From an uncultured Eubacteriales bacterium (GTDB taxonomy: Bacteria > Bacillota_A > Clostridia > Saccharofermentanales > Saccharofermentanaceae): a DNA stretch of 15,306 nt. The notes beneath the pieces are model-generated. The model made no database searches. It saw only the letters and a list, made by a program, of their open reading frames with translations, and was not told where the DNA came from. The DNA lies in the NCBI GenBank assembly GCA_900313405.1, contig OMQY01000167.1, positions 1 to 15,306 of the forward strand, written 5' to 3'. Made by a program: the position numbers and the translations under genes. Positions 1 through 12,035 of this stretch are shown piece by piece; position 1 is the stretch's first letter, and every line of letters starts with the position of its first letter.

Positions 1-624
1 AGGATCCCTGGATTGAATCAGGTACAGGTTAATGCAGAGGCCGGAATGACATTCGCAAGCGGCCTCAGATCCATCCTCCGTCAGGACCCTGATATCATCC
101 TGGTCGGTGAGATCCGTGACGGTGAGACTGCCGAGATCGCTATGAGAGCAGCTATCACGGGACACTTGGTTTTCAGTACGATCCATACCAACGATGCGGT
201 ATCTTCCATCAACCGTCTTATCGATATGGGTCTCGAGCCTTACATGGTATCCTCCGCTCTTGTCGGCGTTGTATCCCAGCGTCTTGTACGTCGTATCTGC
301 ACAAGCTGCAGAGTTGCATATGAACCCGAAGAATACGAGATCGAGAAGCTGCATCTTGAACCCGGTCAGAAGCTTTACCGCGGTGAGGGATGTACAGACT
401 GTAACGGTTCCGGTTATAAGGGGCGTATTGCCATCCATGAGATCGTTGTTATGACCAAGGGCATCAAGATGCTCCTTGAGAAGAGAGCTTCAGAGGAAGA
501 GATGAGACAGCTCGCTGTCAAGGAAGGCACACAGATGCTTGCCGACTCTGCCGCTGCCCTCGTTCTCGAAGGTATATCGACCATCGATGAGATGAACAGA
601 GTAGCATATTCAATTGACGGTTAA
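1..624 (+). CDS. pilB: Type IV pilus extension ATPase PilB, C-terminal part (5' end off window)
   Basis: This is the C-terminal 207 residues of a GspE/PilB secretion ATPase, the cytoplasmic motor that powers pilus extension through PilC. The frame is open from base 1, so the gene begins upstream; an in-frame TTG at 13 is not a real start. Visible motifs are the Walker B region ([12 protein letters not shown], about nt 88-123), the following [14 protein letters not shown] segment with its conserved histidines, and a tetracysteine zinc site (CTSC at nt 298-309 and CTDC at nt 391-402, followed by GYKGR). The tetracysteine marks PilB/GspE and is absent from PilT. The Walker A loop and N-terminal domains lie outside the window. 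The stop is followed after 17 bases by pilT, which has its own RBS, so the two motors are co-transcribed. The family call is firm; pilus rather than type II secretion is inferred from the PilT and pilin neighbours. Confidence 0.95.
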
Positions 625-641
625 ACAAGGAGGTTATATAA

Positions 642-1757
642 GTGGAAGAATTCAGCTTGACGATGGAGGCGATACTGACTGAGGCAGTCAGAAGAGGTGC
701 TTCTGACACGCACATCACAGTCGGTCTGCCCCCGATGATCCGTATCAGTGGTGAACTTATGCCGCTGAGCGGACAGATCTTGACTCCCGCAGATACAGAA
801 TTCCTGTGCAAGTCAATGATCGACAAGTCCAGACAGCAGTACTTGAATGAGAGGGGCGAGATAGATTTCTCGTACGTTGTCGCGGGCTACAGCCGTTTCA
901 GATGTAACATCTTTAAGCAGCGCGGCTCTTTTGCTCTTGCAGCCAGAACGATCACTAACGAGATCCCTACCTGTGAGAAACTCGGTCTGCCTATGGTATT
1001 CAAGGAATTTGCCATGAAGCCTCGTGGTCTTATCCTTGTTACCGGTCCTACGGGTTCCGGTAAGTCTACGACACTGGCTGCCATGGTCGGACACATCAAC
1101 AGTGTTAAGAAGTGTCATATCCTTACTCTCGAGGAGCCTATCGAGTATCTCCATGAGCATGGTGAGGCTATGATCAACCAGAGAGAGATCCACGAGGATA
1201 CACTTTCCTTCGCTAATGCTCTCCGTGCCGCTCTCCGTGAGGATCCTGATGTTATCCTCGTAGGTGAGATGCGTGACCTTGATACTATCAGTACCGCTAT
1301 CACCGCTGCTGAGACGGGACACCTTGTTATGTCGACACTGCATACATCCAGCGCATCTGATACGGTCAACCGTATCATCGACGTTTTCCCTCCTCATCAG
1401 CAGGATCAGATCAGAGTTCAGCTCGGCTCCATTCTCGTAGCCGTTATCTGTCAGACTCTGGTTCCTAAGATCGCCGGAGGCAGATGTGCCGCATTCGAGA
1501 TCATGATCGCTAATGATGCTATCAGGAACAATATCCGTGAGGGTAAGACATACCAGATCGACAGCGCTCTTGCAACAAGCCTCCAGGTTGGAATGTGTCC
1601 TCTGGACTTCTATCTCGCAGAGCTTGTTAAGCGTAAGATCATCTCCAGAGAGACGGCTCTTGCAAGATGCCGCTTCCCGGATGATCTCAAGAGATACATC
1701 AACAACGTTGGCGGACCTGCCAACAGTCCTCTCTTCGGAGATCTGGATTTCCAGTAA
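642..1757 (+). CDS. pilT: Type IV pilus retraction ATPase PilT
   Basis: A 371-residue hexameric retraction ATPase that disassembles pili and drives twitching or DNA-uptake-like pulling. The start is GTG, chosen because AAGGAGG (627-633) lies 8 bases upstream. An N-terminal PAS-like/ASD region (about 1-110) precedes the RecA-like core: Walker A GPTGSGKST at 135-143, Asp box around 163-170, Walker B DPDVILVGEMRD at 201-212, and the His box HLVMSTLHT at 227-235. AIRNNIREGK (293-302) corresponds to the PilT-specific AIRNLIRE retraction motif. No tetracysteine zinc site is present, separating it from PilB. The later segment GMCPLDFYL (317-325) departs from the usual GMQTMD-type sequence. It sits between pilB and pilC in one operon. 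A retraction motor implies dynamic pili rather than a pseudopilus. Confidence 0.96.
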   Translation: MEEFSLTMEAILTEAVRRGASDTHITVGLPPMIRISGELMPLSGQILTPADTEFLCKSMIDKSRQQYLNERGEIDFSYVVAGYSRFRCNIFKQRGSFALAARTITNEIPTCEKLGLPMVFKEFAMKPRGLILVTGPTGSGKSTTLAAMVGHINSVKKCHILTLEEPIEYLHEHGEAMINQREIHEDTLSFANALRAALREDPDVILVGEMRDLDTISTAITAAETGHLVMSTLHTSSASDTVNRIIDVFPPHQQDQIRVQLGSILVAVICQTLVPKIAGGRCAAFEIMIANDAIRNNIREGKTYQIDSALATSLQVGMCPLDFYLAELVKRKIISRETALARCRFPDDLKRYINNVGGPANSPLFGDLDFQ

Positions 1758-1783: not shown

Positions 1784-2992
1784 ATGCCTAATTTCAGATA
1801 TCAGGTTATCGACAGCGCAGGCAAGAAGTCTGAGGGCGTACTTGATGCCGGCAGCATAGCTGAGGCAACACGTAAGCTCAAAGGCGACGGTAAGTTTGTA
1901 TTGTCGGTTGAACTTGATAAGGGCCCCGGTCTCTTAAATATGGAAATCGGCAGCAAGAAGCTGAATACGAAGGAACTTGTTCTTATCTCCAGACAGCTTT
2001 CTGCTCTGCTTTCAGCCGGTATTACCATCATCAGATCCCTTGATATGCTTTATCAGCAGGTTGATTCAAAGCGTGCCAAGAAGGTTGTCGGTGATATTTA
2101 TGAGTCCATTCAGTCGGGCCGCACACTGTCGGACGCCTTCAAGGACCAGAAGGATGCTCTGCCTGCCATCATGATCAGTATGGTCTCTGCAGGTGAGGAA
2201 TCCGGTCGTCTTGACGAGGTTATGGGCCGACTTGCCGAACACTTCCAGAAGCAGTCAAAGTTGAAGAACAAGATCTCTTCTGCGATGGTCTACCCGAAGA
2301 TCCTCTTCTTCCTGACTATCGCGATCACGGTTGGTCTTCTTACATTCCTGGTTCCCGGTATCGCTCAGACGATCAAGGACCTTGGCGGAGATCTTCCTAC
2401 GCTTACTAAGGTTGTTATGGCAATATCCGATTCACTGGTTAAATTCTGGTACGTTTATGCGATTGTCGTTGCAGGTCTCGTATTCGGATTTAAGACCTGG
2501 AAGAAGTCCGAGAAAGGACATTACGCCTGGGATAACCTTATGATCAAGATGCCGGTAGTCGGTAAAGCAACTAAGATGAACGCCGCAGCTATGTTCTGCA
2601 GAACGATATCCACACTCCTTAAGTCCGGTATCTCGGTACTCACTGCCGTTGAGATCACTGCTGCTTCTCTTGATAATGTAGTTCTCGAGAAGAAGCTGGC
2701 TGATGCGAGAGTTGAGATTCGTAAAGGTACACAGTTGTCCAAGTCCATCAAGAACATCACTGAGTTCCCTCCTATGATCTACGCTATGGTAGCTATCGGT
2801 GAGGAGTCAGGTACTCTTGATACTATCCTTGATAAAGCCGCTGACTTCTTCGAGGATGAGGCGGACGCAGCTACGACAAAGATGACAGCAGCTCTTGAGC
2901 CTATCATGCTCATCCTGATGGCTATCCTCGTCGGTACAACTGTTGGTGCTATTGCAATGCCTATCTTCACAATGGCACAGTTCGTCGGATAA
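1784..2992 (+). CDS. pilC: Type IV pilus inner-membrane platform protein PilC
   Basis: A 402-residue polytopic membrane protein of the GspF/PilC family, the platform on which PilB and PilT act. ATG is preceded by AGGAGGG at 1768-1774, with 9 bases between. The N-terminal about 55 residues form the small soluble domain typical of full-length PilC. Two homologous GspF domains follow, each carrying the signature GEESGxLD (137-144 and 339-346). Transmembrane segments are visible near 170-195, 221-237 and 373-395, the usual three-helix layout. The length matches the family (about 400). It lies 26 bases after pilT and 27 before pilM, in the same operon, and shows no sign of damage. Confidence 0.96.
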   Translation: MPNFRYQVIDSAGKKSEGVLDAGSIAEATRKLKGDGKFVLSVELDKGPGLLNMEIGSKKLNTKELVLISRQLSALLSAGITIIRSLDMLYQQVDSKRAKKVVGDIYESIQSGRTLSDAFKDQKDALPAIMISMVSAGEESGRLDEVMGRLAEHFQKQSKLKNKISSAMVYPKILFFLTIAITVGLLTFLVPGIAQTIKDLGGDLPTLTKVVMAISDSLVKFWYVYAIVVAGLVFGFKTWKKSEKGHYAWDNLMIKMPVVGKATKMNAAAMFCRTISTLLKSGISVLTAVEITAASLDNVVLEKKLADARVEIRKGTQLSKSIKNITEFPPMIYAMVAIGEESGTLDTILDKAADFFEDEADAATTKMTAALEPIMLILMAILVGTTVGAIAMPIFTMAQFVG

Positions 2993-3019: not shown

Positions 3020-4138
3020 ATGGATTTATCATCATTCGGAAAAGGTTCAATGGATCTGGTAATCGACACATCCAGTTCTGACTTGAAGCTTGCTGTCGGC
3101 GGCTATAACCGCAAGACAGGAACCATAACACTTGAGAAGGTCGGTATCGTTCCTCTCGAGGCAGAGACAATTGAAGACGGTGCCATATCCGATGCATTCG
3201 GTATCATCATGGCTATGAAGCACGCTCTTGCAAGACTCGACATCAGACAGAAGAATATCATCATCACTACAGAGGGTTCCTTCGTTCATACGAGAGACCT
3301 TGAGCTCCCTAAGGTAAAGGGTGAGCAGCTGAAGGATATGGTTAAGTACGAAGTCATGGGTCAGGGTAATAACAGAGATATGGTTATTGACTACCTTGTA
3401 TACGGCAAGACAGTCGATGAAGAGACAAATGCCGAGAAGATCAAGGTAAGAGCTACGGCTGTTCCTGCCGATACGGTTACTGAGTACCGTGAGTTCATCA
3501 AGAACATGGATATGACTCCTGTTGCACTGGACGTTAATCCTAATGCCATCAGGAAGCTCTTCAATTCCGGTATCATTAACGGAAACATCAATATTGCTCA
3601 GTCGACACTGCTCCTCATCGAGCTCGGCGACAAGACAACTACAGTTACTGTTCTCGATAAGGGCTTCCCGCTCCTGTCCAGAAGACTGCAGTTCGGTCAC
3701 GGCAATATCCGTCAGGTTGCAGAGTCTGTTAAGAAGATGCAGGGCGGCGGAGACAATCAGTCTTCTCTGGCAAGACGTCTTAACATCACAAAGAGTGATT
3801 CTGACAGCTCCGTACCTGTAGAAGATATCGATGTATGGCACGAGACAGTAGCGGAGAACCCTTCGCTTCAGAGTGCTGTTAACGCATACTTCAAGAACCT
3901 TGTTGATGCTGTATCACGTACGGCTCAGTTCTCCATAAGCAAGTTCCGTATCGACAATATCGGTACATGCCTGCTCTACGGATCCGGTGCCGGCTACAAG
4001 AAGATCGACAAAGAGCTTTCTCGCCAGCTTGCAACACAGGTTGAGGTACTGAACACATTAAGCACTGTTCAGGGACCTAAGAATTTTGAGCTTCCTCAGT
4101 TCATCAACTGCTGCGGCGCTCTTATTCGTGAAGAGTAA
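3020..4138 (+). CDS. pilM: PilM-like actin-fold pilus assembly protein
   Basis: A 372-residue cytoplasmic protein with the FtsA/PilM actin-like ATPase fold. PilM normally forms a ring under the membrane and links the motor ATPases to PilN. Visible elements are phosphate-1-like DLVIDTSSSDLKLAV (12-26), a middle SHS2-like domain including ELPKVKGEQLKDMVKYEV, phosphate-2-like LIELGDKTTTVTVL (199-212), and an adenosine-type turn LLYGSGAG (318-325). The start at 3020 follows AAAGGAGA (3005-3012) by 7 bases. An alternative ATG at residue 11 (nt 3050) would still keep the fold but has a poorer RBS. The Gly/Ser/Asp-rich linker around 240-268 is probably a flexible loop. Order pilM-pilN-pilO matches other type IV pilus operons, which supports the call. 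Confidence 0.88.
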   Translation: MDLSSFGKGSMDLVIDTSSSDLKLAVGGYNRKTGTITLEKVGIVPLEAETIEDGAISDAFGIIMAMKHALARLDIRQKNIIITTEGSFVHTRDLELPKVKGEQLKDMVKYEVMGQGNNRDMVIDYLVYGKTVDEETNAEKIKVRATAVPADTVTEYREFIKNMDMTPVALDVNPNAIRKLFNSGIINGNINIAQSTLLLIELGDKTTTVTVLDKGFPLLSRRLQFGHGNIRQVAESVKKMQGGGDNQSSLARRLNITKSDSDSSVPVEDIDVWHETVAENPSLQSAVNAYFKNLVDAVSRTAQFSISKFRIDNIGTCLLYGSGAGYKKIDKELSRQLATQVEVLNTLSTVQGPKNFELPQFINCCGALIREE

Positions 4139-4152
4139 GGAGGGGTAAGGAA

Positions 4153-5082
4153 ATGCCAGTTTTCGGTTCCAAAAAGGATTTTTCCAAGAAAGACATGAAC
4201 TTCTTTTCCGAGTTCACGGAAAAGGCAGCCAAGATGGCAAGAATGTTCGCCTATGTTGCGATCGCCGTTGCAGCTGTAGTTCTGGTTATGGTAGCTTTGA
4301 TCGCCTTTGCTGCTATCCAGAATCAGATGGTCAAGAATGATATCAAGGATATCAAGAAGGATCTCCAGGGCGAGGAGTACAACAATCTCGAAGCAGAGTA
4401 TGCCGAGCTTCAGAATGAGATCTCTGAGAAGACTCAGTACCTGTACGCTTTGGGTGAGATGAGAAATACAGTTGACGAAGTAAACCCTGCAAAGGTTGAG
4501 ATCGCTAACCTCATCAAGGCTAACATCCCTAATGATGCATATGTTTCAAGCTATATCGTTAACGGTGCATCCGTAACGATCACGGGTGAGACATTTAATT
4601 ACTACAATGCAGCCGAGTTCGTAAACCTCCTGCAGAAGTCCAACCTGTTCACAAGTGTTACACAGCTTTCCGTTGATCACTATAATCTTGAGAATGCTGT
4701 TGACGAGACTACAGGATACGTTAACCTGATCGATACTTACTACACATTCTCGATCCAGGCTACACTCACATCCGACATCCATGTTACAGTTAAGAGATAC
4801 CTCGAGGGTGATGCTATTACGGCTATCGGTGTAACTGAGATCGGTGATGCTGAGAATAACGGCTATTACCTGATCCCGGGTGAGGGATATTCCTTCGATA
4901 CTATCAAGACAGCTACACAGGGTTCCGAGACATATGAACTCTCTTATGTACTTATTGATGGTGTACGCGTGAGCGATGAGGACTTCCAGACCATCCTCGA
5001 CAACGATGCTATCACCGGTACTGCAAGCTCAGATACCAACATCGAACTCTATTACAAGAAGACAGACGGAGGTGAATCATAA
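4153..5082 (+). CDS. pilN: PilN-like bitopic pilus alignment protein with extra C-terminal domain
   Basis: A 309-residue membrane protein. A short cytoplasmic N-terminus (1-32, with MNFFSEF at 15-21 perhaps replacing the classical PilN INLLP PilM-binding motif) leads to one transmembrane helix (about 34-57), a heptad-like coiled coil (about 58-100), and a ferredoxin-like PilN domain (about 110-207). Residues 208-303 add a separate beta-rich segment (from HVTVKRYLEG to NIELYYKK) that looks like a MucBP or similar surface-protein repeat. Typical PilN is about 180-220 residues, so this domain is an addition. AAGGAGGGG (4137-4145) overlaps the pilM stop and supports the start. The gene overlaps the next by one base (TAATG). 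PilN identity rests on topology plus gene order more than on sequence similarity. Confidence 0.78.
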   Translation: MPVFGSKKDFSKKDMNFFSEFTEKAAKMARMFAYVAIAVAAVVLVMVALIAFAAIQNQMVKNDIKDIKKDLQGEEYNNLEAEYAELQNEISEKTQYLYALGEMRNTVDEVNPAKVEIANLIKANIPNDAYVSSYIVNGASVTITGETFNYYNAAEFVNLLQKSNLFTSVTQLSVDHYNLENAVDETTGYVNLIDTYYTFSIQATLTSDIHVTVKRYLEGDAITAIGVTEIGDAENNGYYLIPGEGYSFDTIKTATQGSETYELSYVLIDGVRVSDEDFQTILDNDAITGTASSDTNIELYYKKTDGGES

Positions 5083-6182
5083 TGGGTAATTTATCTAACA
5101 GAGAAAGATTCCTGATGATCGCCATAGTACTTATTATTGCGATCTTTGCACTTCAGATGTTCGTTCTCAATCCTCTGAAGGATAAGCAGTCCGAACTGAT
5201 CGATGAGAAGAATGAGCTTGAAGATCAGCAGGCATATCTCGACCAGATGATCGAGAAGAACGAGCAGAACAGACAGCAGCTTGAGATCCTTAACGGACAG
5301 ATCAAGGATATCGAGACTTCATTCATCGCTCAGCTCAATTCTGAGGCGCTCGAGCAGTACATCATGAAGATCTTTGAGGACAACAACTGCCCTTATCTCG
5401 TAGCAGCAGGTGTATCCGATGTAAATCAGCCTTCCGTTATCCTGCCTGACGGCACAGTATCTCCTAACATCCTGAAGGTTAAGAGAGTATCAGTCACATA
5501 CTCTACAACAGACGGATTCCTCGTACCTAAGTTCAATCTCACAGATCCTAACTCTGTTGAGCAGTTCAGAGAGTGGTGGGGAAGAGTACAGGAAGGAATC
5601 GAGTCTTCCGTTTCAAGTCAGGAGAATGCAGGCCGTGGCAATGCTAATACAGAGTCCGCTTCGCTCTATACACCTATCTTCGGTGAGCCTGACAATGCAC
5701 AGCTGATCGGTTATGACGGATTTATCGCTTCTCTGACTCAGATCGAGAAGCTCGATCCTCAGGCTATCAAGATCAATTCCATCAATGTAGAGGACAAGGT
5801 CGGTTATCTCACAATGACAGCTGAGATCGATTTCTATTCTGCTCAGCTCGTTAACCGTGTATCCGATCCGGATCTCGACAAGCCTTATATCACATTTAAC
5901 GGTAATACACCTACACATAATGTTGGTCTTATCGGCTTGCCTCTGTATCCTGTTACAAATGAGAACAGCGGCTGGTATGGAATCCTGCCTGTTACTGAGG
6001 ACGTTCAGGCTTCTGAGAGACCGTTCGCTACATATTACTCCAGCTCGATCCTCAAGTGGCTGCTTGATACTTATGATCTTGGCACTGTCCTTGGTCTGCA
6101 GTATTCAGATTCCGGTAATATCAACGAAGACGGTGACGTCCCTGCAGGTAATGAAGAGCCTGCAGAGGTTCCGGAGGATTAA
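5082..6182 (+). CDS. pilO: PilO-like bitopic pilus alignment protein, enlarged
   Basis: A 366-residue protein with one N-terminal transmembrane helix (about 8-29), a long coiled coil (about 31-80) and an outer domain. This is the topology of PilO, which pairs with PilN on the outer face of the membrane. The coiled-coil and the NSINVEDKVGYLTMTAEIDFY segment (232-252) fit the ferredoxin-like PilO core. A Ser/Asn-rich insertion (about 172-195) and an extended C-terminal region ending in an acidic, Pro/Gly-rich tail (about 343-366) make it much longer than the usual about 200 residues. The start ATG shares its A with the pilN stop (TAATG), and GGAGGTG (5068-5074) lies inside pilN, so translation is probably coupled. 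It is the last gene of the assembly operon. The PilO call is supported mainly by position and topology. Confidence 0.72.
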   Translation: MGNLSNRERFLMIAIVLIIAIFALQMFVLNPLKDKQSELIDEKNELEDQQAYLDQMIEKNEQNRQQLEILNGQIKDIETSFIAQLNSEALEQYIMKIFEDNNCPYLVAAGVSDVNQPSVILPDGTVSPNILKVKRVSVTYSTTDGFLVPKFNLTDPNSVEQFREWWGRVQEGIESSVSSQENAGRGNANTESASLYTPIFGEPDNAQLIGYDGFIASLTQIEKLDPQAIKINSINVEDKVGYLTMTAEIDFYSAQLVNRVSDPDLDKPYITFNGNTPTHNVGLIGLPLYPVTNENSGWYGILPVTEDVQASERPFATYYSSSILKWLLDTYDLGTVLGLQYSDSGNINEDGDVPAGNEEPAEVPED

Positions 6183-6190
6183 TGGGAAAA

Positions 6191-6228
6191 CCCTCTCCAG
6201 GCGGCCGATCGGCTCCTGGAATAAGGGG
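6191..6228 (+). other. GC-rich hairpin at the end of the pil assembly operon
   Basis: Nine bases after the pilO stop, CCAGG (6197-6201) pairs with CCTGG (6215-6219) around the perfect 10-base palindrome GCCGATCGGC (6204-6213). An outer CCCT/AGGG pair (6191-6194 with 6224-6227) may extend the stem. There is no T-tract behind it, so it is not a canonical intrinsic terminator. It could mark the 3' end of the operon mRNA, slow decay, act as a partial terminator, or be a protein-binding palindrome. Confidence 0.5.
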
Positions 6229-6240
6229 GATCCGTTCACA

Positions 6241-6313
6241 TTTTGAACGATTTACAATAAATTGTGAAAAAATGTGAAGAAATTTTGAAAAAGGTATTGC
6301 ACAATTCTGAAAA
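6241..6313 (+). promoter_or_regulatory. Phased A-tract / UP-like region upstream of pilin 1 promoter
   Basis: TGAA elements start at 6244, 6265, 6275, 6286 and 6308, which are steps of 21, 10, 11 and 22 bases, so they fall on one face of the helix. A-tracts follow them at about 6267-6272, 6280-6282, 6288-6292 and 6310-6313. This arrangement predicts intrinsic DNA curvature and an UP-element effect on the adjacent promoter. GTTCA-N5-TGAAC (6234-6248) is an inverted repeat at its left edge. The 10-mer AAAATGTGAA occurs at 6269-6278 and, inverted, at 6235-6244. Confidence 0.45.
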
Positions 6314-6324
6314 GGTGTTATACT
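6297..6324 (+). promoter_or_regulatory. Sigma-A-type promoter of pilin 1
   Basis: TTGCAC (6297-6302) and TATACT (6319-6324) are separated by 16 bases. The predicted transcript starts near 6331, leaving a leader of about 34 bases that contains the strong RBS GGAGG just before the pilin ATG. A dedicated promoter after a 3'-end hairpin suggests the pilin is made at a higher level than the assembly proteins. Confidence 0.7.
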
Positions 6325-6364
6325 TAAGCTACAAACTTAAAAAATCTATAGGAGGATTTTTACA

Positions 6365-6565
6365 ATGAAGAAGATTCAGAAGTCCAAGAAGGGTTTTACA
6401 CTTATTGAGATGGTACTCGTTATCGCTATCATCGTTATCCTTGCTGCAGTTCTCGTTATGAACATCGGTACATACCTCAACAAGGCTAAGAGTGCTACAT
6501 CTTCCGTTGATTCTCACAATGATGCTATCACAGAGCTCGTTAACGAGATCGATGCTAACACATAA
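6365..6565 (+). CDS. Very small type IV pilin (pilin 1)
   Basis: A 66-residue prepilin. Leader MKKIQKSKKG (10 residues, basic) is followed by the cleavage site G|FTLIEM and the hydrophobic N-terminal helix. Glu is at mature position 5, as required for filament assembly, and Tyr at 27. The mature protein is only about 56 residues, essentially just the long N-terminal helix with a short Ser/Asp-rich end, whereas ordinary pilins are 120-160. GGAGG precedes the ATG. The reading frame closes with two stops (TAATAA) and a strong terminator follows almost at once, so this looks like a complete gene and not a truncation. Its own promoter and terminator make it monocistronic, suggesting it is an abundant, perhaps major, subunit. 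No pilA symbol is given because which subunit is major cannot be told from sequence. Confidence 0.9.
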   Translation: MKKIQKSKKGFTLIEMVLVIAIIVILAAVLVMNIGTYLNKAKSATSSVDSHNDAITELVNEIDANT

Positions 6566-6580
6566 TAAGTGCTAACTTCA

Positions 6581-6618
6581 AAAAGGAGAGTGGGAGGGTT
6601 TCCTCCCACTCTTTTTTT
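6581..6618 (+). terminator. Rho-independent terminator after pilin 1
   Basis: The perfect 11-bp stem AGAGTGGGAGG (6587-6597) / CCTCCCACTCT (6602-6612) has a 4-base GTTT loop and is followed by seven Ts, with a second T-run at 6622-6628. Upstream As at 6581-6584 can pair with the T-tract. It separates pilin 1 transcription from the next pilin. Confidence 0.95.
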
Positions 6619-6628
6619 GTCTTTTTTT

Positions 6629-6655
6629 ACTCCGGCCGGACGGCTGATCGGGAGT
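6629..6655. repeat. GC-rich palindromic element before pilin 2 promoter
   Basis: Contains the perfect 10-base palindrome TCCGGCCGGA (6631-6640) and outer arms ACTCC (6629-6633) / GGAGT (6651-6655). CGGCTGATCGG (6641-6651) resembles CGGCCGATCGG (6202-6212) in the hairpin before the pilin 1 promoter. Both sit just upstream of AT-rich promoter DNA. Function is unknown; it may be an operator or part of a duplicated pilin cassette. Confidence 0.35.
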
Positions 6656-6683
6656 TCTCAGAATTTTTGTACAAATTTTAAAC

Positions 6684-6728
6684 AAAATGTGAATTTGTCA
6701 TTGAAATTTCCGTGAATCCCTGTATAAT
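6684..6728 (+). promoter_or_regulatory. Sigma-A-type promoter of pilin 2 with upstream AAAATGTGAA element
   Basis: TTGAAA (6701-6706) and the consensus TATAAT (6723-6728) have a 16-base spacer, the same as at pilin 1. AAAATGTGAA (6684-6693) is identical to the 10-mer at 6269-6278 upstream of pilin 1. The predicted start near 6735 gives a leader of about 48 bases. This promoter probably drives pilin 2 and the two prepilins after it, ending at the terminator at 8252-8280. Confidence 0.75.
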
Positions 6729-6782
6729 GATAATAGTAATAAAGGGTACGTGTAAGTATGTGTGCTTACTTGGAGGTATTCA

Positions 6783-6998
6783 ATGCGTAAGATCAACAAG
6801 ACAAAGAAGGGTTTTACATTGATCGAGATGGTAATGGTTATCGCTATTATCATTCTGCTTGCTAGCGTAGTTACTTTCAATGCAGTAGAGATCTATAACG
6901 GTTCCAAGTCCGGTCAGTCGGACGTTGAACAGTCACAGAATAAGATGACACAAGGCATCCAGGCAAGTGAGCAGATGCTTGCAGATCATAATTTCTAA
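6783..6998 (+). CDS. Very small type IV pilin (pilin 2)
   Basis: A 71-residue prepilin with leader MRKINKTKKG, cleavage G|FTLIEM, Glu5, and a mature length of about 61. The start at 6783 is chosen because GGAGG (6772-6776) is 6 bases upstream and because it gives a 10-residue basic leader like that of pilin 1. A GTG at 6762 in frame would add seven residues without an RBS. It shares KKGFTLIEMV and VIAII with pilin 1, but its tail is Gln/Ser-rich (KSGQSDVEQSQNK) rather than Asp/Asn-rich. Mature aromatics are Phe1, Phe22, Tyr28 and a C-terminal Phe61. It is the first gene of a three-gene unit, 13 bases before the next prepilin. It is a paralogue of pilin 1; roles as major or alternative subunit are unknown. 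Confidence 0.9.
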   Translation: MRKINKTKKGFTLIEMVMVIAIIILLASVVTFNAVEIYNGSKSGQSDVEQSQNKMTQGIQASEQMLADHNF

Positions 6999-7011
6999 GT
7001 AGGAGGGAAGT

Positions 7012-7599
7012 ATGAAGAGAATTCTTAAGCGTTCTTCCAAGAAGGGTTTTACATTGCTTGAGGTAATGCTGGCTGTTGCTATCCTGGCTATCGCTTCGAC
7101 AATGATCATGAATGGATTCATTGCAACAATGGGTTATTCAACGAACACCTCGATCTATTCAAGAGTAGGTAATACAAACTACGAGAAGACTATTACTAAG
7201 ATCGCCACATATTCCAATCTTTCAGTTGCTGACAGATACAGTGATGCATCTGCCAACGCTATCAGGAGCAGCGGCGGAACGACGACGACAATGGACTATG
7301 CAGCAAGCCCTGCTAATGTTCCTGATATGACTGTCTATCAGTGGAGAGAGACAACAGGTGCCTCCGACTACGGTGCCTACAATGCAGCAGCCACATACGG
7401 ATACGGTGAGAGCATGACATATGCCGATAACAGAACGACATTCTTCTATGCTCCGAGCAGTGACCTTTTCTACTGCACAGCTTGCCATCACTATGGCTAC
7501 ATCAATCTTTACAGACATGCCGGTTCTACAGCTTACTACTGCAGATATCAGTTTGATGATGGAACGTATTGCAACCATAAGGTTCGTGACTATAACTGA
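7012..7599 (+). CDS. Type IV prepilin-like protein with C-terminal zinc-ribbon-like cysteines
   Basis: A 195-residue prepilin-like protein. Leader MKRILKRSSKKG ends in G12|FTLLEVM with Glu at mature position 5, followed by the hydrophobic helix (about 14-35). The outer domain is Tyr/Ser/Thr/Ala-rich. Near the C-terminus are four cysteines, C155-x2-C158-x18-C177-x9-C187, together with His159, His160 and His189, resembling a zinc ribbon or two disulfides. AGGAGGG (7001-7007) precedes the ATG by 4 bases. Being larger and downstream of two small pilins, it is probably a minor pilin that initiates or caps the fibre, by analogy with minor pilins elsewhere. No close family is recognised beyond the N-terminal methylation motif. 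Confidence 0.87.
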   Translation: MKRILKRSSKKGFTLLEVMLAVAILAIASTMIMNGFIATMGYSTNTSIYSRVGNTNYEKTITKIATYSNLSVADRYSDASANAIRSSGGTTTTMDYAASPANVPDMTVYQWRETTGASDYGAYNAAATYGYGESMTYADNRTTFFYAPSSDLFYCTACHHYGYINLYRHAGSTAYYCRYQFDDGTYCNHKVRDYN

Positions 7600-7623
7600 T
7601 GAAAGGACAGCGGAGAGTTTATT

Positions 7624-8226
7624 ATGAGATGTGTATCTAAGCGTAAAAACAAAAGAGCATTTACTCTCGTAGAGCTTATGCTCGCGATTGCAATAATAGC
7701 GCTCATCAGCAGCCTGTTCTTGTCATTGATGATCGCGATCAAGGATTCTTACTACAGAGTCTATAATGCAAATGATTCAACAGACTATGCTCAGCTCTAT
7801 GCTCAGGCTCTCGAGAATATGGTTCTCAGAGATACCCAGAGGAATATTGCAGCAGGCACAACTGTCACATATATGATCGAACCTTCCGAGTCGACATTTA
7901 TGGTTAACGGTACAGCTGCATTTACACTTGAGCAGATGAGGAATAACAGCGGCGATGTTAAATGGAACATCTACCTCGATAAGGATGAGACTTACTTTGA
8001 CGAGTCTTCCGGACTGTTCCATTACAGATTCGTATTTGTAGACGGTTATAACTACGAGTATGGTAATCCCGGTACTGTTCAGCTTGTATATGAAGGCACT
8101 TTCTGGATCCCTCATTTCAACGGCGGTTCATTCGATATCCAGACCAACGGAAGTACAACTGCTCACTATAACGACGGAACGGCATATCCTATAACAAATG
8201 CCAAGATCGTTTATACAGCAGCCTGA
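7624..8226 (+). CDS. Type IV prepilin-like protein with Ala at the cleavage site
   Basis: A 200-residue prepilin-like protein starting MRCVSKRKNKRA|FTLVELM. The residue before the predicted cut is Ala12 rather than Gly; the Glu at mature position 5 and the hydrophobic helix (about 14-38) are intact. The remainder is a soluble domain with beta-rich character (TFMVNGTAAFTLEQM, FRFVFVDG-like strands), consistent with a minor pilin or GspJ-type pseudopilin. CGGAGAG (7611-7617) lies 6 bases before the ATG, and the gene follows the preceding prepilin by 24 bases. It is the last gene before a strong terminator. The -1 Ala is tolerated by some prepilin peptidases, so processing is likely but unproven. 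Confidence 0.86.
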   Translation: MRCVSKRKNKRAFTLVELMLAIAIIALISSLFLSLMIAIKDSYYRVYNANDSTDYAQLYAQALENMVLRDTQRNIAAGTTVTYMIEPSESTFMVNGTAAFTLEQMRNNSGDVKWNIYLDKDETYFDESSGLFHYRFVFVDGYNYEYGNPGTVQLVYEGTFWIPHFNGGSFDIQTNGSTTAHYNDGTAYPITNAKIVYTAA

Positions 8227-8251
8227 TCCTAAGGCAAAATGAAGACTTATT

Positions 8252-8280
8252 ACTCGGGAGCGAATGCTCCCGAGTTTTTT
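8252..8280 (+). terminator. Rho-independent terminator ending the pilin operon
   Basis: A perfect 10-bp stem ACTCGGGAGC (8252-8261) / GCTCCCGAGT (8266-8275), loop GAAT, then a run of six Ts. It lies 25 bases after the last prepilin stop and separates the pilus locus from the next operon. Confidence 0.95.
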
Positions 8281-8293
8281 ATTGTTATATATG

Positions 8294-8302
8294 TGTTAAA
8301 AT
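8294..8302 (+). promoter_or_regulatory. Extended -10 promoter for the 8336-11697 operon
   Basis: TGT followed by TAAAAT (8297-8302) forms a TGn extended -10. No good -35 is seen; the position 16-17 bases upstream falls in the terminator T-tract. A start near 8309 leaves a short leader containing AAGGAG (8321-8326). Confidence 0.45.
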
Positions 8303-8335
8303 GTGGACTAGACATAAGTAAAGGAGATAAGGATC

Positions 8336-9103
8336 TTGGAGAAGAGACAGCGTGCTGTAGAACTTGATTTCTTAAGAGGGATCGCTATCTTGTCCATGCT
8401 GTTTATACATTTCTCCTGGGATGTGAGATACGAGTTCGGTAAGAATGCCTTCGCGTATCTGTCCGGCAAAGCTTATATTGTTTTCGTTCACCCGATCGTA
8501 TTGGTGCTCTTTATTGGAGTGTCAGGCATCTGCTGTACCTTTTCGAGGAATAATATCCGGCGCGGGCTGAAGATGCTTGCCGTTGCAACGGCATTCACGA
8601 TCGGTTCATATATCGTTCAGGAGATCACCGGGATCGAATCACTCATCCTATTTAACGTTCTTCACCTTATCACTTTTGGTATCTTTATCTATTCTCTGGT
8701 CCTTTTTATCGAGAGACGGCTGAGTATCAGTCCGGAGCTTACAAACATGCTCATGGGTATGAGCGGCTTATGCATAATGATGATCGGACGGTATATCAAG
8801 CTTTTCGATCACTGTACGGATAATATGCTGTTCCTGCCGATAGGGTTCTCAATACAGGGGATGCCGACAATGGCGGATTATCTGCCGATATTCCCGTGGC
8901 TCGGCATATTCTTTGTCGGTGCCGCCATAGGAAGGGCGTCATATTCTGACAAAAAGTCGAAGCTTCCGGACAGACCGGAGGCGGTCAGGAAGATCGCATC
9001 GCCGATCGAGTTTCTGGGAAGGCATGCGCTTGTGATCTATATTGTTCATCAACCGATCATTTACGGACTGCTGGCGCTCATTTTCAAGGTGACGGGCAAC
9101 TGA
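8336..9103 (+). CDS. Heparan-alpha-glucosaminide N-acetyltransferase-like membrane protein (DUF1624)
   Basis: A 255-residue polytopic membrane protein. The start is TTG, chosen because AAGGAG (8321-8326) is 9 bases upstream and the family motif begins right after it. The N-terminal LDFLRGIAILSMLFIHFSWD (residues 10-29) with Arg14-Gly15 and His25 is the hallmark of the HGSNAT catalytic-type acyltransferase family (DUF1624), related to acyltransferase-3 proteins. About seven transmembrane segments are apparent, including ones near 45-66, 74-92, 97-120, 130-152 and 225-250. Bacterial members are presumed to transfer acyl groups to sugars or envelope glycans, but the substrate here is unknown. 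The stop is followed one base later by the next gene's ATG, so the pair is probably translationally coupled. Use of ATA, CGG and other less common codons is higher than in the pil genes. Confidence 0.83.
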   Translation: MEKRQRAVELDFLRGIAILSMLFIHFSWDVRYEFGKNAFAYLSGKAYIVFVHPIVLVLFIGVSGICCTFSRNNIRRGLKMLAVATAFTIGSYIVQEITGIESLILFNVLHLITFGIFIYSLVLFIERRLSISPELTNMLMGMSGLCIMMIGRYIKLFDHCTDNMLFLPIGFSIQGMPTMADYLPIFPWLGIFFVGAAIGRASYSDKKSKLPDRPEAVRKIASPIEFLGRHALVIYIVHQPIIYGLLALIFKVTGN

Positions 9104-9104
9104 T

Positions 9105-10304
9105 ATGAGACAGACCTATAAACAGAGCCTGAGATCCTACGTAAGAGAACATATTAAAAGGATCATCTTTATTATCCTGGCAGCTGCTCTACTGGGGATA
9201 GTAACCTACTGGCCGCAGAGGGCGATCACGGGCATGTCGGCGGATTTTTACTGCGCGAAGATCTTTCCTGTGGTAGCCTTCGCCTTTAATTCGTTCAGTA
9301 ACTTCTGGATGGTATCCGTCTCGGAGAATCTGCTGGTGGTGATCGCGATAATGGCAGTTATCCTTACAGTATGGTTTATATTCAGCTTTATCCGTCTGAT
9401 GCTGACGGGAAAGAAGCAGAGGGAATACCTGACATCAGTCCTTAAGACAGTCTCATGGCTTCTCGTGGTCGCTATCGTTCTGATGACTGTTTATCAACTG
9501 ATGCACGGGATCAACTACAACAGGACGTCCGTTGAGGAGAAGCTCGATCTCGAGGAGTGTACTGACTATCAGGATTATGTCGATACTCTTAACTGGGCCT
9601 ATGCCGGAATGCTGTCTGCCAGGTCGAAGCTCGGTGAGGATTATCTCGGAGTAGCTCATATGAATACGAGCTTCGAGAAATGTGTTTACGATGCCAATGG
9701 GACAGTTAATGCCGTATCCGATACCTACGGACTGGATATGAGTCCTAACTATATCAGAGCCAAGGCCGTGTCTTTAAGCAACCTCTGGAGCTATACCGAT
9801 ATTACCGGGGTTTATTCCGTGTTGCTCGGCGAAGCGAATGTTAATACAGATTATCTCGATATACTTGAATTCCCGATAACACTCTGTCATGAGATCAGCC
9901 ATGCCAAAGGTTATGCACGTGAATATGACTGCAACATGATCGCGGTCCTGTCTTGTATCTCGTCAACAAGGCCCGACTTCAGATATGCAGGATACTTTTA
10001 TATATTCATCCATCTTTATTCGGATGTCGCTCAATATGCTGAAGCTCTCGGAATGGAATTCTACGATTATCTTGGCGACAGCAGATTCGCTGCCGTAAGA
10101 AGAGACATGAGGGCACAGGATGACTACGAGGCTTCTCTGGAGGAGGGATTCATCCCTGATCTTATAAGCCGTTTCTCGGAAGATGCCAATAACGCTTTTC
10201 TGGAGGCTAACGGCCAGGAAGGCGGAACATATACTTATCATATCCACACTAATTTCTATGTAGACTTCTTCCATAAGTACATAAGGACGGAAGACGATGC
10301 TTGA
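9105..10304 (+). CDS. DUF3810 membrane protein with HEISH metallopeptidase motif
   Basis: A 399-residue protein with three transmembrane helices near 20-37, 72-98 and 113-132 and a large domain after them, probably extracytoplasmic. HEISHAKGYAREYDCN contains HExxH (His262-Glu263-Ile-Ser-His266) plus Glu273 seven residues later, a gluzincin-like zinc site as described for DUF3810. This suggests a membrane-bound metallopeptidase, although no substrate or proven activity is known to me for the family. It begins one base after the upstream stop and overlaps hemZ by 8 bases, placing all three in one transcript. The RBS is weak (AAGGTG at 9086-9091 is 13 bases away), consistent with translational coupling. 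Confidence 0.83.
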   Translation: MRQTYKQSLRSYVREHIKRIIFIILAAALLGIVTYWPQRAITGMSADFYCAKIFPVVAFAFNSFSNFWMVSVSENLLVVIAIMAVILTVWFIFSFIRLMLTGKKQREYLTSVLKTVSWLLVVAIVLMTVYQLMHGINYNRTSVEEKLDLEECTDYQDYVDTLNWAYAGMLSARSKLGEDYLGVAHMNTSFEKCVYDANGTVNAVSDTYGLDMSPNYIRAKAVSLSNLWSYTDITGVYSVLLGEANVNTDYLDILEFPITLCHEISHAKGYAREYDCNMIAVLSCISSTRPDFRYAGYFYIFIHLYSDVAQYAEALGMEFYDYLGDSRFAAVRRDMRAQDDYEASLEEGFIPDLISRFSEDANNAFLEANGQEGGTYTYHIHTNFYVDFFHKYIRTEDDA

Positions 10305-11697
10305 GGTAATACTTAGGGGACATGATAACTATTACGGTATCAGTGATGTTCTGAGACTCTTTTACGACGGGATAAGTGAAGACCGGGCAAATAACCGTGT
10401 AGTCTGCTTAGAGGCTGATGATCTGACGATCATGAGTATTGTTGACGGGGACAGTGTCATTGCGTCTTGTGATGATAAAGAGATAAGAGCCGTTGCCGGA
10501 GACATACCCGTCAAGCGGGAGGTGAAAAGAACTCTCTACAGATTACTCGTCGATATTACGTCACGCAGTTTCCCATGGGGATGTCTTACCGGGATCAGAC
10601 CTACCCTTGTTGCAGGTGAGGTCGGACAGGCAGAGAAGATGGCTCAAATGTACCTGGTCCGTCCTGATAAGGCGGAACTGGCCGTGAAGACATATATGGA
10701 AGAGCAGCGGATACTGGATACCGTCCCGAAGGAGTCACTCTGCATCTATATCGGAGTTCCTTTTTGTCCTTCGCGCTGCGAATACTGCTCATTTGTCTCG
10801 AGTGATATAAGTCACCATATGGGACTTCTCGCAGAATATGAGCAGGCACTCATCAAGGAGATCTCACTCGTGGCACCGGCCGTCACATCCAAAGTATCTG
10901 CCGTTTACATGGGCGGTGGGACTCCGACTGTCTTCGATGATGAGGCGATGGAACGGATTCTTTATAAGATCAGGGATCTGATCGCCATGGACTCTGATAC
11001 GGAATTTACCGTAGAAGCAGGAAGACCGGATACCATCACGAAGAGAAAGCTGACAGCTATGCGCAAAGCAGGTGTTAACAGGCTTTGCATTAATCCGCAG
11101 ACTATGTCAGATGAGACACTGGCGAGGCTCAACAGACGACACACATCGTCTGATACCGTCAGAACGTATCATATGGCGCGCGAAACGGGATTTGACATAA
11201 TCAATATGGATCTTATCGCCGGGCTCAAGTACGAGCCGTCTGAGAGACTCCTGGAGTCGCTCGATGCGGTCATGGATCTTGACCCTGCCAATATAACTGT
11301 CCATACGCTCTATAAGAAGAGGAGAGCATCTATGGATAAAGCTGATGTGCTGGACAGGACCGGTTCGAGAGGGGATATCGATACCGTGCTCACGAAGGCT
11401 TACAGTCTCCTTGAAGGCAGAGGATACGGTCCTTACTATATGTACAGGCAGAAAGATACAGGACACGGACTGGAGAATGTCGGATTTGCAAAACCGGGGA
11501 CCGGATGCAGATATAATGTGGCGATGATGAGCGACAGACGCGATGTTCTCTCGTTCGGAGCCGGTGCGATGAGCAAGAGGACATTCGAAGGCGGCCGGCT
11601 CGAGAGATGCCCGAGCATCAAGGACGTGATCGGGTATATTAAGAGTGTTGAAGAGGTTGCTGATAAAAAGAAGCGATTTTTCGATATAATAGTATAG
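10297..11697 (+). CDS. hemZ: HemZ-type radical SAM coproporphyrinogen III dehydrogenase-like protein
   Basis: A 466-residue radical SAM enzyme. The cluster motif C157-PSR-C161-EY-C164 lies in the GVPFCPSRCEYCSF segment, and YMGGGTPT (around 204-211) is the SAM-contacting glycine motif. The N-terminal about 145 residues contain SFPWGCLTGIRPT (91-103), characteristic of HemZ and absent from HemN and HemW. HemZ is annotated as oxygen-independent coproporphyrinogen III oxidase (decarboxylation of two propionates to vinyl groups), but the biochemical role in heme-poor anaerobes is not settled. The start overlaps the upstream gene by 8 bases, with AAGGACGG (10283-10290) as RBS. No truncation is seen. 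Heme context is lacking nearby, so a non-heme role is possible. Confidence 0.9.
   Translation: MLEVILRGHDNYYGISDVLRLFYDGISEDRANNRVVCLEADDLTIMSIVDGDSVIASCDDKEIRAVAGDIPVKREVKRTLYRLLVDITSRSFPWGCLTGIRPTLVAGEVGQAEKMAQMYLVRPDKAELAVKTYMEEQRILDTVPKESLCIYIGVPFCPSRCEYCSFVSSDISHHMGLLAEYEQALIKEISLVAPAVTSKVSAVYMGGGTPTVFDDEAMERILYKIRDLIAMDSDTEFTVEAGRPDTITKRKLTAMRKAGVNRLCINPQTMSDETLARLNRRHTSSDTVRTYHMARETGFDIINMDLIAGLKYEPSERLLESLDAVMDLDPANITVHTLYKKRRASMDKADVLDRTGSRGDIDTVLTKAYSLLEGRGYGPYYMYRQKDTGHGLENVGFAKPGTGCRYNVAMMSDRRDVLSFGAGAMSKRTFEGGRLERCPSIKDVIGYIKSVEEVADKKKRFFDIIV
11685..11690 (+). promoter_or_regulatory. Candidate -10 box before the small zinc-ribbon gene
   Basis: A consensus TATAAT overlaps the last codons of hemZ, 40 bases before the next ATG. 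The nearest TTGCTG (11657-11662) is 22 bases away, too far for a normal -35. The 11730 gene may therefore have its own weak promoter or simply be read through from hemZ. Confidence 0.25.
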
Positions 11698-11729
11698 AAT
11701 AGATTGAGATCTGAAAAGGAAGCAAGAGT

Positions 11730-11978
11730 ATGAAGTGTCCAAGATGTGGTCTGGAGAACGGAGACAGAACGGTATGCAGTAAATGCGGCCACTTTATGTA
11801 TCGTCCGGTCGACCAGAACCGCAAAAAGATGACAAAGGCCGAGCGGGCCAGGGAAGATGCCAAGATAATGTGGAAGAACATCGCGAAGGTCCTCCGCATA
11901 GTATGGATGGTCATCGTAATGGTCGTATTGAGCTTCCTGATGATAGCTGTTTTGACTTATTTCTTTAACGGAGCCTGA
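11730..11978 (+). CDS. Small zinc-ribbon membrane protein, function unknown
   Basis: An 82-residue protein. It starts with a rubredoxin-like zinc ribbon, C3-x2-C6-x9-C16-x2-C19, followed by a basic, charged linker (29-50) and a single C-terminal transmembrane helix (about 56-78). Such ribbon-plus-helix proteins are common in Clostridia and lack a known role. AAAAGGAAG upstream serves as RBS. It lies 32 bases after hemZ, so co-transcription is possible, and its stop codon is embedded in the left arm of the terminator that follows. The ribbon is predicted to face the cytoplasm given the basic linker before the helix. Confidence 0.8.
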   Translation: MKCPRCGLENGDRTVCSKCGHFMYRPVDQNRKKMTKAERAREDAKIMWKNIAKVLRIVWMVIVMVVLSFLMIAVLTYFFNGA

Positions 11979-12010
11979 CATCTGATCAGGCTCTTTGTCT
12001 GTTTATTCAC
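11971..12010 (+). terminator. Intrinsic terminator overlapping the end of the small zinc-ribbon gene
   Basis: The 8-bp stem GAGCCTGA (11971-11978) / TCAGGCTC (11986-11993) has a 7-base loop, followed by a broken T-rich stretch (TTTGTCTGTTTATT). The left arm contains the TGA stop codon. The imperfect T-tract suggests moderate strength. Confidence 0.7.
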
Positions 12011-12019
12011 TCGATAATG

Positions 12020-12028
12020 TGATAAAAT
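12020..12028 (+). promoter_or_regulatory. Extended -10 promoter of the HD-GYP gene
   Basis: TGA followed by TAAAAT (12023-12028) is a TGn extended -10; no clear -35 is seen. The expected start point, about 7 bases beyond the box, falls at or next to the A of the ATG at 12036, which would make the transcript leaderless. Confidence 0.45.
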
Positions 12029-12035
12029 ATATTTT

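Follow-up and report, generated by a model that had tools for sequence, protein, structure and literature searches.

Among the described systems closest to the one analyzed here, Geobacter builds its major pilin from two polypeptides, PilA-N of 61 and PilA-C of 104 aa (PMC11046646), with the partner gene lying adjacent (PMC5174107). Tad/Flp (type IVc) pili, e.g., those of Caulobacter with a mature pilin of 45 aa, are described from cryo-electron microscopy as headless filaments of bare helices (PMC11067988). In a survey of 1,955 type IVa (T4a) major pilins, lengths ranged from 42 to 297 residues with a mean of 141 ± 25 (PMC11046646), and truncated pilins are reported for several genera, Streptococcus included (PMC5174107). 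The contig OMQY01000167.1 of an uncultured Eubacteriales bacterium (the window, i.e., the whole stretch of 15,306 nucleotides analyzed) carries one + strand pilus operon consisting of the pilB end, pilT, pilC, pilM, pilN and a pilO-like gene, followed by four prepilin genes (pilins 1–4; mature lengths 56, 61, 183 and 188). Given the survey range, pilins of the size of pilin 1 are on record, yet they lie far below the mean. We consider it probable that the T4a-type pilus specified by the operon is headless and carries, at its tip complex, a short pilin acting as an adaptor. The further-reaching version, a retractable T4a-type pilus of bare, unbroken helices that has neither a head nor a partner head protein, undergoes no melting of helix α1 and uses a tip adaptor with a fixed length of 61 residues, is a tentative proposal to which we give slightly less than an even chance.

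Length, conservation and predicted helix of pilin 1

The pilin 1 precursor has 66 residues, of which 10 form a leader ending in KKG, and its gene closes with tandem TAA TAA stops. A sequence-only reading of this region had described two complete tiny prepilins with mature lengths of about 56 and 61, and the Pfam N_methyl scores bear this out (33.5 and 29.2 bits, cut-off 21.2); all four prepilins of the window exceed this cut-off, with Gly (pilin 3) and Ala (pilin 4) at position −1 of the two longer ones. The span considered in that reading, 6365..6998, leaves out these latter members of the cluster (7012–7599 and 7624–8226). Our comparison covers 81 sequences (the window plus 80 loci), 74 of which, the window included, have a complete pilin 1. 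Among the other seven, L005, L047, L056, L072 and L075 end before pilin 1, L062 ends inside it, and L011 stops at 12731, near the expected start of pilin 1, with no prepilin seen there. Pilin 1 was selected by its N-terminal motif and a mature length below 100, pilin 2 as the last prepilin below 100 ahead of the first one above 140; a listing without length limit showed no long first prepilin at any of these loci. Sequences missed by the filters were added, raising pilin 1 from 73 to 74 (L023) and pilin 2 from 67 to 70 (L023, L017, L036). Codon, terminator and dN/dS counts rest on the filter sets of 73 and 67, from which 53 and 48 sequences, respectively, were used for the alignments.

Wherever its gene is complete (74 loci), mature pilin 1 measures 52–66 residues. 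A longer continuous reading frame, looked for in the relatives, was found at 0/74 loci. This retention of the short frame upholds the earlier view that pilin 1 does not stem from a frameshifted gene, and we ruled out a frameshift or truncation artefact. Database searches yielded 904 relatives at E ≤ 0.001, and the best 120 of these have 65–70 aa, except for one of 96 aa with an N-terminal extension. The closest relative genome examined, G001 (harboring locus L016), encodes a PilC 95% identical to that of the window. Within a set of 59 genomes related to and including G001, the pilin 1 profile matches 42 at E ≤ 0.001, and 33 at E ≤ 1e-25 with nearly the whole model covered. G020 and G031, both high in the list of relatives, gave only weak matches (E ~1e-13 and ~1e-12; frames of 148–265 aa), so some relatives may not have the short pilin. 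Records for the remaining loci bear the names Saccharofermentans, Mageeibacillus, Ruminococcaceae, Oscillospiraceae, Clostridiaceae or unplaced Clostridiales/Clostridia, and many of their sample names refer to ruminant gut or horse faeces.

Across the syntenic loci, the N-terminal half of pilin 1 is nearly invariant and the tail more variable, with median dN/dS values of 0.145 for residues 1–25 and 0.50 for residues 26–52. Of 1408 pairs, 95% show a ratio smaller than 1 for the tail, i.e., residues 26–52 are under purifying selection. E5 is found at 73/73, Y27 at 72/73 and H41 at 70/73 loci. The low aromatic content emphasized in the sequence-only reading (F1 and Y27 only) recurs in the relatives, where mature pilin 1 has two or three aromatics at 49/73 loci (two at 34, three at 15). 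The conserved Y27 and the similar length may call to mind the conductive pili claimed for Geobacter, but the Geobacter pilin is described as having six aromatics (PMC5059446), and we regard conductivity of this kind as extremely improbable.

AlphaFold2 modeled pilin 1 (single chain) as a single helix spanning precursor residues 13–65 (pLDDT 90.8, pTM 0.50), leaving no globular head after α1. Foldseek returned 0 matches to this fold, as expected for a lone helix. In the Neisseria meningitidis pilus, the melted segment of α1 is bounded by Gly14 and Pro22, which act as helix breakers; both residues occur in the Geobacter pilin, and type IVb pilins are described as lacking Pro22 and carrying glycines at positions 11, 14 and 19 (PMC5059446). 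Partial melting of α1 has been called likely universal in Bacteria (PMC10628169), but the Tad structure that came afterwards is helical (PMC11067988). For pilin 1, Gly14 and Pro22 each score 0/73; Val occupies position 14 at 67/73 loci, and position 22 is usually taken by Leu, Met or Phe. Residues 1–22 are devoid of Gly and Pro at 72/74 loci, the exceptions being L040, with an internally deleted pilin 1, and L055, with Gly22; the same holds for all 119 parsed database relatives (from the best 120 of 904). Because of this Gly/Pro-free stretch, helix melting of the T4a type is not expected in pilin 1, and its helix would, judging from these residues, stay unmelted in the filament.

The best solved relatives of pilins 1 and 2 in the Protein Data Bank (PDB) are short pilins of Geobacter (9egp, with E-values of 4.6e-12 and 7e-11, respectively, as well as 7tgg and 2m7g/6vk9). 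Pilin 1 shares with the 61-aa PilA-N of Geobacter sulfurreducens the short, α1-only build as well as F1, E5 and Y27. It differs from the Geobacter system by the lack of an adjacent PilA-C gene, the replacement of Gly14/Pro22 and fewer aromatics, and no secretin was found in the genomes of eight relatives. The similarity raises the possibility of a split pilin, in which pilin 1 would be the stick onto which a secreted PilA-C-type head, encoded elsewhere in the genome, docks, as the two-part Geobacter major pilin illustrates. However, while the Geobacter partner is encoded next door, the gap between pilins 1 and 2 is smaller than 312 nt at 63/70 loci, too small for a 104-aa gene. Of the seven larger gaps, the three that were read, those of L021, L039 and L042, contain further short prepilins, and the other four measure 313–327 nt; in the window, neither flanking gap holds a secreted-head-like open reading frame, with no search made for a distant partner. 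We consider a split pilin unlikely.

Pilin 1 as candidate major subunit

The prepilin cluster of the window comprises the following features:

6297..6324, + strand: possible pilin 1 promoter, TTGCAC-16-TATACT, identified by eye and not reported by the promoter scan
6350..6355, + strand: pilin 1 ribosome-binding site AGGAGG, from the sequence
6365..6565, + strand: pilin 1, putative headless major pilin, mature 56 aa (N_methyl score, AlphaFold2 helix, codon bias, short at 74/74 loci)
6581..6618, + strand: intrinsic terminator 3' of pilin 1, stem of 17 pairs plus T run
6701..6728, + strand: promoter-like site of the pilin 2-3-4 unit, TTGAAA-16-TATAAT, 11/12 consensus bases
6783..6998, + strand: pilin 2, putative short minor pilin, mature 61 aa, C-terminal Phe (N_methyl score; Phe/Tyr61 at 69/70 loci)
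7012..7599, + strand: pilin 3, putative minor pilin in GspI/PilV position, 195 aa (N_methyl 32.7 bits; GspI model 20.2 bits, below its cut-off of 44.35)
7624..8226, + strand: pilin 4, putative minor pilin in GspJ/PilW position, 200 aa (N_methyl above cut-off)
8252..8275, + strand: intrinsic terminator 3' of pilin 4, 10 pairs plus T run

Codon adaptation indices (CAI) were based on weights from 19 ribosomal-protein genes of a sister genome, and reliance on one genome limits the values for distant loci. With 0.877, window pilin 1 surpasses all 19 ribosomal-protein genes (0.67–0.82); the values for pilins 2, 3 and 4 are 0.681, 0.659 and 0.589. When measured against synonymous recodings that follow local codon usage, the z values of pilin 1 were 5.3 (window) and 3.9 (L016), compared with 1.9/−0.9 for pilin 2, 3.1/−0.1 for pilin 3 and 0.4/−0.8 for pilin 4. 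The CAI of pilin 1 exceeded that of pilin 2 at 67/67 loci and those of pilins 3/4 at 67/67 as well (medians over loci of 0.788, 0.466 and 0.542, respectively). Terminator-like hairpins follow pilin 1 at 72/73 loci versus 1.4 expected from mononucleotide shuffles, and pilin 2 at 4/67; the pilin 2–pilin 3 gap has a median of 14 nt (range 1–685). Codon bias and terminator pattern suggest that pilin 1 is transcribed separately and strongly and that pilins 2, 3 and 4 share a single, weaker transcription unit. The promoter-like site at 6701..6728 is weak evidence when taken alone, as the scan gave 8 sites versus a chance expectation of 6.3. The sequence-only reading had treated the two short pilins as like subunits, a view that our data do not support: pilin 1 behaves as an abundant major pilin, pilin 2 as a minor one beside pilins 3 and 4.

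The gene inventory of G001 points in the same direction. Its six N_methyl proteins are the four operon prepilins, a 66-residue pilin 1 paralogue (L081) with a low CAI of 0.398, and a protein of 218 residues (L082); a conventional pilin of 120–160 aa is not among them. Its ATPases are one PilB, one PilT and one further member of the T2SSE family, the latter probably of the Tad type; a single prepilin peptidase accompanies them. With just one copy each of PilB and PilT in G001, and with a conventional pilin gene not detected there, pilin 1 is, on this genomic evidence, most likely the major subunit. A prepilin peptidase was detected as one A24_N match in each of eight relatives' genomes and none in the window; in L016, the gene lies divergently, directly upstream of pilB.

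Alternatively, pilin 1 might be the filler of a mixed filament whose heads are provided at regular positions by larger prepilins, either pilins 3 and 4 or linker-bearing ones encoded elsewhere. A larger prepilin indeed follows in 69/81 sequences, and relatives possess extra prepilins with linkers and C-terminal modules at other sites, but pilins 2–4 fall below pilin 1 in codon bias at 67/67 loci and the linker pilin of G001 has a CAI of just 0.444, making such an arrangement quite improbable.

Several observations concern additional pilin genes. Solitary pilin 1 paralogues occur outside the operon (L081:5940-6140(-), L086:5668-5874, L088:5759-6022), and the extra short prepilins inside the cluster of L039 (12668-14081), L042 (11454-13099) and L021 (7433-8374) suggest duplication of the major pilin. 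A second PilB is present in 5/8 genomes (G002, G004–G007). The one such second system that was read, L085, encodes a conventional 149-aa pilin with Pro22, a prepilin-type protein of 2780 aa (4056-12398) and a prepilin peptidase; long frames with a prepilin motif also occur in G002, G004 and G005.

The pilus machinery, pilin 2 and the larger prepilins

Upstream of the prepilins, the window encodes:

1..624, + strand: pilB, 3' part, extension ATPase (partial protein: TIGR02533 273.6 bits, TIGR02538 247.8 bits)
642..1757, + strand: pilT, retraction ATPase (TIGR01420 462 bits, cut-off 319.1)
1784..2992, + strand: pilC, platform protein (PF00482 203.7 bits, cut-off 25.2)
3020..4138, + strand: pilM (PF11104 61.8 bits, cut-off 27)
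4153..5082, + strand: pilN (PF05137 34.8 bits, cut-off 22.8)
5082..6182, + strand: pilO-like, by position, with a weak T2SSM match of 19.1 bits below the cut-off of 27.8

The pilB scores stay below the whole-protein cut-offs because the window copy is truncated; relative locus L016 has pilB in full length. The type IVa core PilB, PilC, PilM, PilN and PilO is thus clustered with the prepilins, PilB being partial and PilO assigned by position and a sub-threshold match. Separate PilB and PilT together with PilC/PilMNO distinguish this operon from Tad systems, which are described as having a single bifunctional ATPase, CpaF (PMC12019362). Pilin 1 itself reached 19.8 bits with Flp1_like, under the cut-off of 33.5, and likewise remained under the cut-offs of the Com pilus models (ComGC 25.4/75, ComGE 30.7/49, ComGD 24.5/70).

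One could also envisage that the operon makes a short pseudopilus only, for secretion or DNA uptake, and no surface pilus. A number of the relatives in the database carry the name 'type II secretion system protein', and the order of the minor pilins resembles the GspH-I-J gene order. On the other hand, PilT is present, and the secretin PF00263 was found in 0/8 relatives' genomes (control rings, 6/14), so this is not a diderm type II system. We hold a mere pseudopilus to be very improbable.

Pilin 2 (ATG at 6783, preceded by GGAGG) is made as a 71-aa precursor with a 10-residue leader and has the aromatics F1, F22, Y28 and F61. Glu5 is present at 67/67 loci, and residue 61 is Phe or Tyr at 69/70 (L050 counted as Phe), with a mean identity of just 23% over residues 26–60. 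Residues 1–22 have no Pro but contain Gly at 46/70 loci (the mis-cut L050 among the 70). A pilin 2 profile search found 4745 among 7995 scored candidates, the best 120 of the 4745 being mixed with pilin 1 relatives. In a larger sample of 105 proteins (P0121–P0225, six from another search), 104 could be parsed, 29 of them pilin 1-like and 75 not. Phe or Tyr at position 61 occurs in 49 of these 75, 38 of which end there; most of the other 26 represent variants of pilin 1 and unrelated pilins.

For the larger minor pilins, PDB profile searches with pilins 3 and 4 gave matches limited to the N-terminal helix regions. Foldseek returned nothing significant for pilin 4, a second look (VIA) giving PilB and a pseudopilus chain. 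The C-terminus of window pilin 3 has a four-cysteine, zinc-ribbon-like stretch; we dismissed this as a family trait, as CxxC past residue 60 occurs at just 19/69 loci. Pilin 4 is longer at L004 (6424-7596, 391 aa) and L008 (13806-15014, 403 aa), where it gains a low-complexity linker plus a further domain; pilin 2 is also extended at both loci. At L082:5545-6198 (Pro/Thr linker), L089:5419-6261 and L090:5122-5940(-), prepilins encoded on their own consist of a short helix, a linker rich in Pro/Thr or Gly/Asn, and a C-terminal module with no Pfam match above cut-off; those of L082 and L089 follow similar neighbour genes. Possibly these are linker-tethered binding modules on the pilus. Such a binding role is a guess, as no carbohydrate-binding Pfam family scored above cut-off in L082, L089 and L090 or in pilin 4 of L004 and L008.

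Regarding regulation, AAATGTGAA was seen by eye in A+T-rich stretches 5' of pilin 1 (~6267-6279) and pilin 2 (~6684-6693) and might be a shared regulatory element. Rfam at gathering threshold detected no c-di-GMP riboswitch or other known RNA before the pilins, the whole window being searched. Downstream of the pilus genes, 12036-14243 encodes a membrane protein with an HD_5 (HD-GYP-like) domain, possibly a c-di-GMP phosphodiesterase.

Proposed assembly and its implications

We propose that pilin 1 serves as the major subunit of a monoderm T4a-type pilus, the subunit being helix α1 alone. Prepilin peptidase would cut after Gly10, and PilB, PilC and PilMNO would assemble a thin filament from the 56-residue helices, presumably held together by the hydrophobic α1 core and the Phe1/Glu5 contact and retracted by PilT, with the pilin 1 helix remaining unbroken. 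Pilins 2, 3 and 4, arranged in the GspH-I-J gene order, would form a low-copy initiation or tip complex. Pilin 2, by its length offering little beyond the helix, may form the link between the headless shaft and pilins 3 and 4 with their heads, docking by way of its fixed length of 61 residues and the terminal Phe/Tyr; binding functions would then reside on the minor pilins rather than on the shaft. The sequence-only reading considered that partner subunits might be needed; a PilA-C gene of the Geobacter type is not adjacent, but a distantly encoded partner or a glycan coat may exist. High codon bias is not exclusive to pilin 1, as window pilO, pilN and pilM also reach CAI values of 0.69–0.75.

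The T4a pilus of Streptococcus sanguinis (PilE1/PilE2, with modular minor pilins PilB and PilC) is described as having headed major pilins with a melted α1 stretch (PMC10628169), as opposed to the headless pilin 1. Ruminococcus albus and R. flavefaciens are gut Clostridia that have type IV pili as well; in R. albus, these have been linked to adhesion to cellulose (PMC6916266, PMC3672088). The R. flavefaciens pilin of 14 kDa is about twice the size of pilin 1. Screening open-licence PMC literature by title and abstract brought up no paper about the present pilin family; PMC8179133 and PMC9934059 deal with modular pilins. What appears to be new is a conserved family that accompanies a T4a machine, lacks an adjacent partner as well as helix breakers, and in which, going by the sequence evidence, the short protein would be the main subunit. 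Some sources of the locus, e.g., Ruminococcaceae bacterium AB4001 (L030) and YAD3003 (L052), may be isolates, as their records are not labelled metagenome assemblies.

Models of T4a assembly assume a globular head; in the 'clamping' model of 2023, the platform grips the helix just under it (PMC10191384). A headless, breaker-free T4a major pilin would make both the clamping and the universal-melting ideas directly testable. A headless major subunit in these gut Clostridia would be unusual for type IV pili, and the further-reaching version, if true, would mean that headless filaments like those of Tad have been reached independently by another route, via the T4a machine.
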